DNA from: Bdellovibrionales bacterium | GTDB taxonomy: Bacteria; Bdellovibrionota; Bdellovibrionia; Bdellovibrionales; Bdellovibrionaceae | Reading direction: 5' to 3' | Length of the DNA stretch: 64,000 nucleotides | Assembly: GCA_018266295.1 (NCBI GenBank) | Contig: JAFEAQ010000004.1 | Location: forward strand, 682,001-746,000 | In this document: piece after piece, positions 57,420 through 62,725 of the stretch | Numbering within the stretch: position 1 is the stretch's first letter | Layout of the letters: each line of letters begins with the position of its first letter | Program-made: the position numbers and the translations under genes | Notes under the pieces: generated by a model | Seen by the model: only the letters and a program-made list of their open reading frames with translations | Databases searched by the model: none | What the model was told of the DNA's origin: nothing

Positions 57420-57446
57420 TTCCATCTAGACAAATTTATACCTGCA

Positions 57447-57480
57447 CAAGCCTGGACGATACTCCAGGCTTGTTTTTTTT
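57447..57480 (+). terminator. Rho-independent terminator after the coiled-coil gene
   Basis: CAAGCCTGG, loop ACGATACT, CCAGGCTTG, perfect 9-bp stem, followed by eight Ts. It separates the small coiled-coil gene from the motor operon. Confidence 0.9.
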
Positions 57481-57607
57481 CGGCCAACAGGGTGGTGCGC
57501 AAAGTTGTGATTTTACGCCACCCAGACTCCAGTTCCCACGTGGGAAAGCCGTTAGGCATGATAGCGGTTATTGTGACTGCGCTTAGCATTTAATGGAGTT
57601 GGCTGAG

Positions 57608-59338
57608 ATGTCATTCAATTATCATAAAAATAAAGAAGGACATTCTAACGACAGTTTTTGGACGTCGTATTCGGATCTATTTTTGGGTCTTAGTACGATC
57701 TTCTTGCTGTTGTATGTGATCTCTAGTCTTCGCACCAGCACTGATGCCATCCGTTCACAGGTTGAGAGCCAGAAACTTTCCATGGAAGTGGAAGAGTTAA
57801 AAGGTCAGCTCAAAATGTATGAGAACGTAAAAAACGAGTACATGAACAATGCCCCGAAAGACGAAGTTCAAGAGTACCAAGAGTTGATGGACAAACTCAC
57901 GCTGTTGCAAGAGGACGCAAAAACCGAGAAGGACAAACTCATCGAGCAAGCTCTTGCTAACGATGGCAAAGTGAAAGCTTTGAATAAGTACCAGCAGATG
58001 GTGCGTAACGTAATGAACGCCAATAAGATGGCGAAGTCTAAGATCGTTAATCGTGATGACTTAATTAAAGATCAGGACGAAGAGATCGAAGTTAAAAAGG
58101 GTGAAATATCTGATCTTCAAAAAGACGTTCAGCAAAAAAAGGCTCTCATTGCTGAGGGTGAAAGAAAGATCGACGAAGCTAATAATTACTTAAAATCTAA
58201 GCAGGCTGAGTTGAAGCAAGCGCTTCGCACGAACAAGATCACTCGTGAACGTTACAACATGCGACTTGCTCAAGTTAAAGCTGAAAATGACAAGCGCGTG
58301 AATCAGTTGGCTTTGGCAAATGAAAAATACAATGAGCAATTGGAAGCAGCTGCCGGTCAGTTGAAACAAGCTAATGCTCAACTCGCTCAGACGAATGAGC
58401 AGTTGAATCAGACAAATACTGCGTTGACGAATACTCAAGGACAATTGGCTGCGACTCAAGGGTTGTTGGATAAAAAAGAAGGCGAAGTTAAAGGTCTTTA
58501 TGGCGCCCTTCAAAAGCAAGCGGCTGAAGGTCAAGCTAAACTGGCTCAGATGCAAGCTGGCTTCGCGGCTGAAAAAGCTCGCGAAAAAGCAGCATTCGAA
58601 GCTGAGTTAGGCCGTAATAAAGCTATGGGTGCGGCGGAACGTGCTCGTCGTGAAGGTGAATTCAAAGCGGCAATGGCAGCGAAAGAAAAAGAGTTTGGTG
58701 GCAAGATGGCGGCTTTGGGCGGCCAATTGAAAGACACCGAAGGTCAGTTGGCGAAAGCACGGGCTGAGATCGAAGCTCGTCGTTCTGTAGCTGACGAAGT
58801 TAAAAAAGGTTTTGCGAAGGCGGGAATCAAGGCGGATATCGACATGGAGACGGGCGATGTCGTTCTTGATTTCGGTCAAGCTTATTTCGATAGCGACTCG
58901 GATCATCTGAAAAATGAAATGAAGAACGTCCTCGAAAAAGCGATGCCAATCTATTCGAAGTCTTTGTTCGGAAATCCTAAGATCTCAGACAAAATTACTG
59001 CGGTTGAGATCGTGGGTTTTGCGTCACCGACTTATAAAGGTCGTTTCATCGATCCAAAGAGTCAGAAGCCTGAAGATAAGCAAGCCATCAAGTATAATAT
59101 GGACCTCAGTTACCGTCGTGCGAATGCCATCTTCGGATACGTTCTCGACGACAATAACCTGAGATTTGAGCATCAAAAAGAGTTAGTAGGATTGATGAAG
59201 GTTTCCGGTCGTTCCTTCTTGGAAGTAATGAACGTGAATACCAGAAATGTCGCCAATGCCAATGAGTTCTGTAAGCAGAACGATTGTAAAAAGGCGCAAA
59301 GAGTTATCATCAGATTTAATGTGGATCAAAAGAAATAA
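57608..59338 (+). CDS. MotB/OmpA-like stator protein with long periplasmic coiled coil
   Basis: 576 residues from the ATG at 57608 (GGAG upstream). Near the N-terminus FWTSYSDLFLGLSTIFLLLYVIS is a MotB-type helix with the proton-carrying Asp23 after the conserved W and Y. Residues ~45-395 are a coiled coil, about 350 residues long, far longer than in MotB. The C-terminal ~175 residues form an OmpA-family domain (VVLDFGQAYFDSDSDHL, VEIVGFASPTYKGRF, LSYRRANAIFGYVL) of the peptidoglycan-binding class. First gene of the three-gene operon; the MotA-like gene starts 9-12 bases later. Confidence 0.85.
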   Translation: MSFNYHKNKEGHSNDSFWTSYSDLFLGLSTIFLLLYVISSLRTSTDAIRSQVESQKLSMEVEELKGQLKMYENVKNEYMNNAPKDEVQEYQELMDKLTLLQEDAKTEKDKLIEQALANDGKVKALNKYQQMVRNVMNANKMAKSKIVNRDDLIKDQDEEIEVKKGEISDLQKDVQQKKALIAEGERKIDEANNYLKSKQAELKQALRTNKITRERYNMRLAQVKAENDKRVNQLALANEKYNEQLEAAAGQLKQANAQLAQTNEQLNQTNTALTNTQGQLAATQGLLDKKEGEVKGLYGALQKQAAEGQAKLAQMQAGFAAEKAREKAAFEAELGRNKAMGAAERARREGEFKAAMAAKEKEFGGKMAALGGQLKDTEGQLAKARAEIEARRSVADEVKKGFAKAGIKADIDMETGDVVLDFGQAYFDSDSDHLKNEMKNVLEKAMPIYSKSLFGNPKISDKITAVEIVGFASPTYKGRFIDPKSQKPEDKQAIKYNMDLSYRRANAIFGYVLDDNNLRFEHQKELVGLMKVSGRSFLEVMNVNTRNVANANEFCKQNDCKKAQRVIIRFNVDQKK

Positions 59339-59347
59339 AAGAGGTGT

Positions 59348-60283
59348 GTGGTGTTAGACGGAAAAACTATCGCAGAATATTTTATATTATGTCTGCCATA
59401 TGTAATGGCGAGCGTCTTCGTTGTCGGCGTTTTCTTCCGCGCTATGGTCTACTATACGGTTCGCCGTCATGAGTGGTTCGCGCGCGAGTTCGAAAAACGT
59501 GTGAATCGTTTCATGGAGACTGAAACTCCAGGAAAAGTCCACGATGTTTCTTTCTATGTTCTTTCTAAAAGAATGCTTGAAAGAACCTACTATGAAGTCT
59601 TCGAGATCCGCGATCGCATGAAGCGCAGAAAGCCAGATGCGGTGATGAGCTGGAGTGATCGCCTGTTCCTCATTAAGCAAGGTTGCGCTTGGTTGGTGAA
59701 AGATATCTTGAAACAAGTGAAGTTCTTGAAATGGACTGAAGAGACGCCAAAATTGTTGAACATTACGAAAGCAACGTTCCACCACAATCCTTGCTTTAAC
59801 CGTGTGTTCGGCATCATCCCAATGCAGGGTTTGAATGACATTATCTCTATCTTGCCGGGTCTTTTCGTTGTTGCCGGTATCCTGGGTACGTTCATCGGTA
59901 TCGCGACAGGTCTTGGTGACTTGGGCGGTATGAATCTTCAGGACTTGGAAGCAACTAAGAACATCATGGATAAATTCCTCCATGAGATTTCTTTTGCGAT
60001 GAAATCTTCGATCGTGGGTATCGTGTTCTCTCTTGCGACTCATATTTTGAATACTATGATGTCGCCAGAAAGAGCTTACGTTTCTATGATCGACCGTTTT
60101 GAAAGCTCTATGGATCTTCTATGGTATCGTAGTGATAACAATACTTATCCTTCTGATGAGCGTCCATTCGACGAACACAAGGATGCAGTAGAAGCTCTTG
60201 CTGAAGATGCCTTGAATAAGGAGATCAGCAAAGGCCAAAGAACACGTGAGATGCTTGAGGTGCGTAAGCCAAAAGCTTCGTAA
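59348..60283 (+). CDS. MotA/ExbB/TolQ-family proton-channel protein
   Basis: 311 residues from a GTG (GAGG before it). Membrane segments: one at ~8-28, a central pair near ~174-200 (ISILPGLFVVAGILGTFIGIATGL) and ~218-240 (ISFAMKSSIVGIVFSLATHIL). The latter two are the hallmark TM3/TM4 of MotA/ExbB, which with a MotB-type Asp build the ion path. The cytoplasmic domain of ~130 residues lies between TM1 and the pair. No flagellar motor genes are close. It is 14 bases upstream of the FHA gene. Confidence 0.88.
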   Translation: MVLDGKTIAEYFILCLPYVMASVFVVGVFFRAMVYYTVRRHEWFAREFEKRVNRFMETETPGKVHDVSFYVLSKRMLERTYYEVFEIRDRMKRRKPDAVMSWSDRLFLIKQGCAWLVKDILKQVKFLKWTEETPKLLNITKATFHHNPCFNRVFGIIPMQGLNDIISILPGLFVVAGILGTFIGIATGLGDLGGMNLQDLEATKNIMDKFLHEISFAMKSSIVGIVFSLATHILNTMMSPERAYVSMIDRFESSMDLLWYRSDNNTYPSDERPFDEHKDAVEALAEDALNKEISKGQRTREMLEVRKPKAS

Positions 60284-60298
60284 TTGGGAAACTAAGAG

Positions 60299-62725
60299 AT
60301 GTTAAAGACGTTCTGCAAATATACAGTCACGGTCCATCGCAAGGACCAAGTAATGACCAAGGTCGTGAACGAAGATTCGTTCACGATTGGTCGTTCTATG
60401 GACTGTACGATTGCGTTGCAGGAAGACAGCATCAGCCGTGTGCACATTGTCGTGCACCGCCGCCAGGAGCATATCTGGATCGAGGACAAAGGGTCTTCGA
60501 ATGGTACTTTCGTCAATAACGTCCGTATTGCTCAAAACAGCCTTGTTAATGTCGTAGCGAATGACCGCATTCGTGTAGGGAAGTCCGACTACGTTTTAAG
60601 TATTGCTCTTGAAATTGAAGAGCGCGATGAAAATGCAGCTCCGGCGGGAAATGCTGATGCTACGGAGCTTTTGAAAGCTCCAGCGGCTCCGCAACAAAAA
60701 GCGCAGCAGCCTTCATCTGCGTTTAACCCGGCGGCCTTTCAGCCGATTCTGATGCCGAAAGACAAAGATAAGACAGCAGCGCCCCAAGCACAGCGTCCTT
60801 CTCAGGCAAATAATCAGAACGGCGTGGCTCAAAATCCGCAGGAAACTCCAAAAGCAGAAGTGCGCCGCGAGATTCGCTCAACACCGGTGCGTGAAGAGAA
60901 TCAAGCAAATAACTACAGCAGCAATCCGGCGCAATTTGAAGGTGAAAAAATCCTTCATGATGCCCATAAGAAAGCGGCGCAAATTATCTATGAAGGTGAA
61001 GTACAGGCTGAAAAGCGTGCGCAAAGCATTTATATGGAGGCCCGCGAGCGACAGTCGCAGGCGGACTCTTACTATCAAAAGAAAGTTTCTGAAGCCCATA
61101 GACACGCTGATGAAATCATCGTGAATTTCCAAAAACAAGGCGAAGAGCTGCTGGTTCAAGCTCGTCAGTTTGCTCAGGAAATGCGTGACGAAGTGGATGT
61201 GTTCTCGCGTAAGCTTCGTGATGAGGCCCGTGTTGAAGCTGACGCTATTACTGAGGAAGCCCGCAAAGAGGCGGATCTCATTAAGCACGACGCCTATGAA
61301 AAAGCTCTGACAAAAGCCGAAATCGAAGCAGAAGACCTTGTTGTCAGCGCCAAGGCTGAATCTCAGGATATTTTGACGTCTGCTCAACAGCAGGCGGAAG
61401 ACATGCTCGCAAAAGTTCGTAGCGAGATGGAAAACGAGCTTAAAGATCTTATTGAAGCTATCGATGATAAGAAGAAGCAGATCCAGCATTTCAAAAAAGA
61501 GATGGAAGAGCTGCAAGTAAAAGCTCTCGGCGATCAAGAGGAAGCAGAAATCAGCCTGGCTGAAGTCAAAGAAGAGCATGAGAAGTTCAAAGTCGAAGTC
61601 GAAGCAATGCAAAGAACATTGGGAGCTTCTCGTATTGAGGATGAAGCTCTGCAAGAAAAGATTCGTGACCAGAAAAAAGCGGCTGCTGATCTTGAACACC
61701 AAATCGGTGTTCTATATGGCGACAGCAAGACTCTGGAAAGAAAGAACAAAGAGTTGCAGGATTTGATCGGGCATAAAACTCTCGATATCCAAGCAGCTGA
61801 AGATCAGAAACGTATCATGGAAAATGAGCTTGTGGTTCATAAGTCTCAGATCAAAGAGCGTTTGGAGCGAGACAAAACACAGCTGATTAAAGAGTCCGAG
61901 CAAAGTCTGCATGATGCGCAGCTTGAAATGAGCAAGCGCCTGCAGAAGCTTGAGCAAGAGATGCTCGAAGAAATCATGGGCCGTAAAGAGTCCATCGTAA
62001 AAGATATTATCGTTGTCATCGAAACCCGTATCGCGAAGGTTCTTGAGCCGGCGAAGTGGGACCAAGTTTCAAGCCAAATCTTTGATGGGATTTCAGAGAC
62101 CCTCGAAGGGAAGGCTGTGTCCTTTACCGAGAGCACGAAACAGCCTAAACAATCCGCTTCTTTGGCAAGAAAGAAGAAGAAGGAAAACATCCGCTGGATG
62201 TCCGTGGGTATTACTGCGGGTATCATGGTGTCTATTCTCGGTTTGCAAACCTACAATCGTGTGACGTCGGATAAAAATCCGATGCGTACGCTCGCTGCAG
62301 AAGAAAGCCGCCGTCGTCAGGAAGATCTTGAGAAGCGTAAGTTTAATCCGCCTCAGGTTCGTGACGTGAAAGATACTTATACAGACGCAGTTATCTATAC
62401 TGCGGGTTATGTGGCTGCATACCAGGATCCCGATTATCAGCAAAAGCTTTACAAAGCTGCCTCGACGTACTTGTTGAAAACATGGCGCGTGGATGAGGAC
62501 AAGTCCATTCAGGTTCTGTCGATGTCGAGCGCTTTGATTAAAGAGTTGAACGACAAAAAGCAAAATATCCATCCGGACTACGTCAAAGATGGCGTGCAGA
62601 AGATGCGTAATCTCGAAAAGGAAAGTCTTGAACGTATGAAAGTCGTTCTGGGTTCTGAAGTTCGCCTTGAGTCTTATCGCCGTTTCGAAAAGCGGTTCTT
62701 CGAGACTGAGATCCTCAAGAAATAG
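60299..62725 (+). CDS. FHA-domain coiled-coil transmembrane protein
   Basis: 808 residues. The N-terminal FHA domain covers ~5-100 (TIGRSMDCTIALQEDSISRVHIVV, KGSSNGTFVNN), with the usual pThr-binding Arg, Ser, His and Asn residues. A Pro/Gln-rich linker (~115-210) and a long coiled coil (~215-600) follow. A single helix sits at ~629-652, preceded by a KKKK stretch, and ~156 C-terminal residues would be periplasmic. A cytoplasmic phospho-reader is thus physically joined to the periplasm. It is the last gene of the motor operon. Confidence 0.85.
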   Translation: MLKTFCKYTVTVHRKDQVMTKVVNEDSFTIGRSMDCTIALQEDSISRVHIVVHRRQEHIWIEDKGSSNGTFVNNVRIAQNSLVNVVANDRIRVGKSDYVLSIALEIEERDENAAPAGNADATELLKAPAAPQQKAQQPSSAFNPAAFQPILMPKDKDKTAAPQAQRPSQANNQNGVAQNPQETPKAEVRREIRSTPVREENQANNYSSNPAQFEGEKILHDAHKKAAQIIYEGEVQAEKRAQSIYMEARERQSQADSYYQKKVSEAHRHADEIIVNFQKQGEELLVQARQFAQEMRDEVDVFSRKLRDEARVEADAITEEARKEADLIKHDAYEKALTKAEIEAEDLVVSAKAESQDILTSAQQQAEDMLAKVRSEMENELKDLIEAIDDKKKQIQHFKKEMEELQVKALGDQEEAEISLAEVKEEHEKFKVEVEAMQRTLGASRIEDEALQEKIRDQKKAAADLEHQIGVLYGDSKTLERKNKELQDLIGHKTLDIQAAEDQKRIMENELVVHKSQIKERLERDKTQLIKESEQSLHDAQLEMSKRLQKLEQEMLEEIMGRKESIVKDIIVVIETRIAKVLEPAKWDQVSSQIFDGISETLEGKAVSFTESTKQPKQSASLARKKKKENIRWMSVGITAGIMVSILGLQTYNRVTSDKNPMRTLAAEESRRRQEDLEKRKFNPPQVRDVKDTYTDAVIYTAGYVAAYQDPDYQQKLYKAASTYLLKTWRVDEDKSIQVLSMSSALIKELNDKKQNIHPDYVKDGVQKMRNLEKESLERMKVVLGSEVRLESYRRFEKRFFETEILKK

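Follow-up and report, generated by a model that had tools for sequence, protein, structure and literature searches.

A conserved three-gene operon of Bdellovibrionota predicted to encode a ZorAB-like envelope motor with an FHA-domain partner protein

Introduction

Trans-envelope motors driven by ions are few in kind, and most of them have a known output. ZorAB has been demonstrated to be a 5:2 assembly that depends on ion flow and on its wall-binding domain, and the long tail of ZorA is required for defence (PMC11890865). In the Agl-Glt system of Myxococcus, the proton motor has AglR as its A subunit, and AglR contacts GltG in a two-hybrid assay, GltG being a protein that joins an FHA domain to the periplasm through a transmembrane (TM) helix (PMC3169522); this contact sets a precedent for the meeting of a motor and an FHA protein. 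Here we analyse three genes, named B, A and F and all on the plus strand, in a 64,000-nucleotide stretch of a Bdellovibrionales bacterium genome (hereafter the window, in whose positions coordinates are given). The operon is real and conserved, and it would represent a widespread, apparently undescribed branch of such motors; no published description of it, or of its cyclic-nucleotide version presented below, was found in the papers searched, most subscription papers lying outside the search.

Results

The three genes stand in the order B-A-F with intergenic gaps of 9 and 15 bases, at the place and on the common strand given by a first-pass annotation of the window (Table 1). The open reading frame (ORF) of B opens at 57593, but the Met at 57608 is the start conserved in relatives, which begin with MSFNY or MAFNY. 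We compared 20 loci from as many genera and a set of 100 loci consisting of those 20 and 80 from named genomes, some genomes being counted twice. B and A are adjacent in 20/20 of the former, with F next in 19/20. Among the 100 loci, B is present in 99 and F in 94, the missing cases being mostly contig ends, with true absence in two (L054 and L126), and B and A are adjacent wherever there is enough sequence to show it. The B-A-F order, which the first-pass annotation had proposed to follow across genomes, is kept in 94/100 loci, and its recurrence in 19/20 of the sampled genera and families is far beyond chance. Essentially no homologues are shared across 21 loci at gene offsets -5 to -2 and +2 to +6, and because the flanking genes are not conserved, the unit consists of exactly three genes. 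A profile search found A or its sibling in 179/369 genomes of the phylum Bdellovibrionota, ~145 with the main form, 41 with the sibling and 7 with both. The operon is present in B. bacteriovorus HD100, at about 1,107,700-1,112,616 of its chromosome, and 21/25 genomes of one genus (g7) carry it, with one copy per genome.

The predicted products of A and B carry the residues expected of a motor core. A has three TM helices, of which TM2-TM3 are MotA/ExbB-like, and ~74 residues follow TM3. P170, G177, G180, T181, F182 and G184 are invariant in its alignment, as are M218, S221, G224 and S228 in TM3; the Thr of the GTF motif (T181), which is universal, and the TM3 Ser (S221) occupy channel-lining positions. 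The single TM helix of B carries an Asp within SYSDL that is invariant across 21 relatives, and in a motif search every exception to it was resolved on inspection, so that the Asp is universal as well. Together, the TM Asp of B and the Thr/Ser pair of A make up, in the alignments, the signature of 5:2 ion-driven motors. The Pfam family PF01618 (MotA/TolQ/ExbB), of which A appears to be only a remote relative, scores A at 14.2 bits vs a gathering cut-off of 22.9, and because of this standard annotation misses A and overlooks the branch.

Several comparisons point to ZorAB as the nearest relative of this core. ZorA models match A at E ~1e-11, and profiles of A and B match ZorA and ZorB in the PDB. 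Among NCBIfam and PADLOC models, those of ZorA give a weak indication and that of ZorB a stronger one; the curated ZorA cut-offs are missed by A (42.7 bits vs 500 and 42.0 vs 100), and that of ZorB1 by B (26.9 bits vs 400). A tree of A subunits places the window family, the sibling and the two-gene forms in one supported clade (100/97), which adjoins ZorA and lies apart from the eight other A subunits of its own genome. A is not of the AglR type, as the ExbB/TolQ/AglR-like proteins of its own genome sit in another clade, and its position in a clade of its own near ZorA speaks against the view, allowed for by the first-pass annotation, that these genes are simply known gliding or Tol paralogues. 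We are unsure of the branching order of the clade among ZorA types, where the branches are long. The long cytoplasmic tail of the ZorA type is absent from A, a PADLOC run on the window neighbours found no ZorC/D, ZorE or other defence gene, and true ZorA is scattered in the same phylum, scoring above cut-off in 2/241. From these comparisons, the motor core appears closest to ZorAB, yet it does not appear to be Zorya.

The periplasmic part of B begins with a coil of hydrophobic period 3.52 (heptad-like) containing one proline, its best period lying only slightly above the 99th percentile of shuffles, and L98, L102, L104, L105, K126, L130, Y133, Q134 and N142 are invariant in its early block. 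Fully extended, the 336 helical residues of this arm would measure ~50 nm, exceeding the usual periplasm, and the arm must therefore fold, tilt or stack. In structural comparisons with the predicted C-terminal domain, ZorB occupies the first three ranks (Z 16.9/16.0/15.0), followed by MotS and MotB (Z ~12-14) and then by OmpA/Pal-like domains (~9-11); the Pfam matches of B to MotB_plug and OmpA are both below cut-off. In the diaminopimelate site the Arg (R509) is invariant, and at the position of the OmpA-type Asp B has Ser, a feature shared with type II ZorB. The first-pass annotation had assigned to B an in-membrane Asp23, a periplasmic coiled coil of ~350 residues and an OmpA-type end, and to A a MotA/ExbB-like channel identity. 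These assignments hold, the coil being slightly shorter (~336 residues) and the end having a predicted MotB/OmpA-type fold of the wall-binding kind.

The layout proposed earlier for F, an FHA domain followed by a coiled coil and one TM helix, is likewise borne out. The long cytoplasmic coil has a period of 3.66 (hendecad-like), clearly above shuffles. The GltG model (NF033760) covers only residues 9-195 of F (E 1.4e-12, 46.9 bits vs a cut-off of 650), and the TonB-like C-terminus of GltG is absent from F, whose own C-terminus is all-helical in the AlphaFold2 prediction. Fold searches of the PDB with this end domain did not turn up a clear relative (best matches: Foldseek E 2.0, VIA Z 5.2), and no function is read from it, although the domain may still have a known fold. 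The phosphothreonine site (G-R / S-R-x-H) is intact in 82/95 F proteins, including that of the window. In six Bacteriovoracaceae loci (L114, L116, L122, L123, L134 and L136), an FHA-like region is recognisable and the site residues are gone, and two Bacteriovoracaceae loci are without FHA, the loci listed as FHA-absent being L120, L128 and L189. The coil, the TM helix and the end domain stay where the FHA domain is degenerate or lost (L114, L116, L120, L128 and L134), and F is absent altogether from some lineages, which have two-gene B-A forms (L054, L182 and L184). This distribution suggests that phospho-reading is probably ancestral and usual, yet not indispensable. Two Hanks-type kinases score above cut-off in the own genome. 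Gating of the motor by threonine phosphorylation, as put forward in the first-pass annotation, is possible on these sequences: most members keep a canonical site, but the site is not universal, being degenerate or lost in some Bacteriovoracaceae and giving way to a cyclic-nucleotide-binding protein in the sibling operon.

This sibling operon, which was not part of the first-pass annotation, offers the strongest hint on the mechanism. Weaker matches of A in Bacteriovoracaceae-type genomes form a separate clade, in which the operon consists of B', A' and a protein with a cyclic-nucleotide-binding domain (CNBD). A search for the sibling found it in 41/369 genomes of the phylum, and the B'-A'-CNBD order is kept in 30/30 loci, 29 of them with all genes on one strand. 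The third gene encodes a stand-alone protein of ~150 aa that scores 57-76 bits against PF00027 (cut-off 27.5), with the Glu and Arg of the phosphate cassette (E77 and R86) invariant in the alignment, and class III cyclases are found in all eight sibling genomes tested. Because the third gene of the sibling encodes a cyclic-nucleotide-binding protein, the third position would hold an exchangeable signal reader, which suggests a motor family with exchangeable readers, the coupling between motor and reader being inferred. B' ranges from 704 to 1,758 aa in length. The B' proteins of three loci (L175, L171 and L174) have 926-1,758 aa and would reach far beyond the width of the periplasm if their middle is an extended coil.

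Table 1. Positions of the operon features and of related loci (window positions, unless a contig or locus is named)
Feature	Position	Strand	Basis
Gene B, MotB/ZorB-like, 576 aa from conserved Met	57608..59338	+	Alignment of relatives; PADLOC ZorB1 model (PDLC00609) E 2.4e-29
Invariant TM Asp codon of B (D28 in ORF = D23 from Met-6)	57674..57676	+	Alignment of relatives
Predicted periplasmic coiled-coil segment of B, ~336 residues, conserved block near start (residues 91-145)	57740..58747	+	Periodicity, alignment
Predicted MotB/OmpA-fold domain at the periplasmic C-terminus of B, with two invariant Cys	58748..59335	+	AlphaFold2 pLDDT 86.6
Gene A (GTG start), channel subunit with 3 TM helices, MotA/ExbB/ZorA-like	59348..60283	+	ORF, alignment, profile matches
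C-terminal coding end of A	60260-60283	+	Survey of Ala-Ser/Ala-Ala endings
Gene F, 808 aa, with FHA domain, coiled coil, TM helix and periplasmic domain in this order	60299..62725	+	ORF, Pfam FHA, hydropathy scan
FHA domain of F, phosphothreonine-site residues G31 R32 S46 R47 H49 N68 G69 T70 intact	60365..60598	+	Pfam FHA E 6.1e-16
TM helix of F (residues 631-649), KKKK just before, N-terminus inside	62189..62245	+	Hydropathy scan, sequence
Predicted all-helical periplasmic domain of F	62261..62722	+	AlphaFold2 pLDDT 91.7
Intrinsic-terminator-like hairpin with T run	57446..57473	+	11 pairs, 6 GC, TTTTTTT tail
Four ExbB-like/GltG-like gene pairs, own genome (G000)	C11:874162-877039, C11:224126-231324, C10:63024-68883, C8:36106-42019
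Loci of the sibling operon, B'-A'-cyclic-nucleotide-binding protein	L158-L168, L171-L175, L190-L219

Upstream of B, the hairpin, a strong one, would mark the end of another unit, parting the operon from a 131-aa gene that is not conserved next to the operon in other loci. A separate observation concerns the C-termini of the A proteins. Of 98 loci, 60% have an A protein whose last two residues are Ala-Ser or Ala-Ala (33 have Lys-Ala-Ser), vs 1.7% of flanking ORFs; A' and the cyclic-nucleotide-binding protein of the sibling also often end in KAA or KAS. These endings are a possible docking or degradation tag.

Outside the phylum, the family is absent from 298 genomes of another phylum, reached through a metagenome-assembled genome named Thioalkalivibrio, apart from a mis-binned contig, the weak matches there (E ~1e-9) being long ZorA-like or other proteins, and a plasmid collection gave one match, a true ZorA. 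The operon also occurs on contigs labelled as Actinomycetota, Thioalkalivibrio and Streptomyces (L066, L094 and L099), which are probably mis-binned or misnamed metagenome assemblies. The 'Thioalkalivibrio' and 'Actinomycetota' occurrences are short contigs of mis-binned appearance, and the apparent occurrences under 'Streptomyces' and 'Deltaproteobacteria' are misleading, as at least two of these genomes coincide by coordinates with Bdellovibrionota genomes. Within the phylum, most genomes of the HD100 genus have the operon, and it is absent from genome G002, which may be that of the epibiotic B. exovorus JSS; in the genus to which G002 belongs (g3), most genomes lack it and four have it. This gap is a possible lead to a link with prey entry or invasion and not evidence of one, given other gaps and the exceptions in that genus.

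Discussion

We consider it probable that the operon encodes a cell-wall-anchored, ion-driven motor, composed of a ZorAB-like A5B2 core and a bitopic partner that links the state of the core to a cytoplasmic signal. In such a motor, five A subunits, each contributing three TM helices with the invariant GTF Thr and TM3 Ser, would surround two B helices, and ions (H+ or Na+) would pass the invariant Asp23 and turn or switch the core. The ZorB-like end of B would grip peptidoglycan at the tip of a folded-back coiled arm. F would lie beside A and B through its TM helix, with its helical domain touching the periplasmic part, and its coil and FHA head would bind a phosphothreonine protein, so that phosphorylation might recruit, unlock or attach the motor; the comparison with the sibling operon suggests that this third position is that of an exchangeable reader. 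The core and the wall anchor are proposed from homology, and the gating step is one that we infer. Candidate outputs may include surface movement, prey entry and envelope upkeep.

Several points weigh against this proposal. The A5B2 stoichiometry is a prediction from homology only. The Ser in place of the OmpA-type Asp makes wall binding by B less than certain. An arm of ~336 residues is hard to fit in the periplasm, the more so in the sibling, where the whole protein reaches up to 1,758 aa. Finally, the degeneration or loss of FHA domains and the lineages missing F indicate that the motor itself can do without phospho-reading.

Other explanations were weighed against the same evidence. The operon could encode an additional gliding motor that parallels Agl-Glt and in which F stands for GltG, since F and GltG have a common FHA-TM-periplasm layout, with the GltG model matching the N-terminal part of F, Bdellovibrio glides (PMC3169522) and aglS is needed for attachment (PMC6561027). 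We regard this as unlikely, because F is without a TonB-like end, B is MotB/ZorB-like and not short and TolR/ExbD-like, no glt genes are nearby, and four Agl-Glt-like sets, each an ExbB-like gene close to a GltG-like gene, are present separately in the own genome. Four such sets have been reported for Bdellovibrio, and the count agrees. As this explanation concerns the output, it is compatible with the operon encoding a motor. Alternatively, B and A could be a sensor of wall tension or ion flux, with F relaying the state of the envelope to a phosphothreonine partner, from outside to inside. A wall-anchored coil with a cytoplasmic reader fits a sensor too, and the ZorAB complex has been proposed in the Zorya literature to sense envelope perturbation; sequence cannot tell motor from sensor, but the characterised A5B2 relatives use ion flow for work, and we hold a sensor to be improbable. 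Anti-phage defence by a Zorya variant, with F or the cyclic-nucleotide protein sensing infection, is very unlikely even though profiles, fold and tree all place A and B nearest to ZorA and ZorB, because no Zorya effector or defence gene adjoins and no flank is conserved, A ends shortly after TM3 where defence requires the long ZorA tail (PMC11890865), and the operon is kept as a single copy mostly through a genus, unlike the scattered true ZorA.

If the operon does encode a motor, a broader and more tentative suggestion is that Bdellovibrionota possess a family of wall-anchored, chemically switched trans-envelope motors, gated directly by an exchangeable third-gene reader, of phosphothreonine (FHA) type in one branch and of cyclic-nucleotide type in the sibling branch, and serving predatory or surface-associated life. 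With this operon, the ZorAB-type core would extend beyond phage defence to an apparent housekeeping or lifestyle use, and the FHA or cyclic-nucleotide third gene would give a direct handle on the switching of such a motor. Since HD100 carries the operon, these proposals are testable in a genetically tractable predator.

In comparison with known systems, the operon shares with MotAB the MotB-type plug/OmpA-like end and the TM Asp of B, but A has three TM helices, no flagellar genes adjoin, and the MotA-like proteins of the own genome are distant in the tree. TolQRA and ExbBD-TonB likewise combine a three-TM channel, an Asp protein and a TM-anchored third transducer, whereas the end of F is all-helical and not of the TonB/TolA type, and B has an OmpA-like end and a long coil. 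With Agl-Glt it has in common an ion motor and an FHA-TM-periplasm partner; there, the B subunits are of the TolQR/ExbD type, the end of GltG is TonB-like and many more genes take part. The first-pass annotation was wrong in stating that no known motor adds a partner joining an FHA domain to the periplasm, GltG being the precedent (PMC3169522): a motor with such a partner is a known idea, and this operon differs in having a ZorAB-type core, a long arm in B and a helical end in F. With ZorAB the operon shares the ZorB-like periplasmic domain, the GTF Thr, the TM Asp and the position of A beside ZorA in the tree, but it is without the long A tail and the ZorC/D/E effectors, adds a long coil in B and an FHA-TM third gene, and is single-copy and widespread in one phylum. 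The operon is thus nearest to ZorAB by descent and nearest to Agl-Glt in plan.

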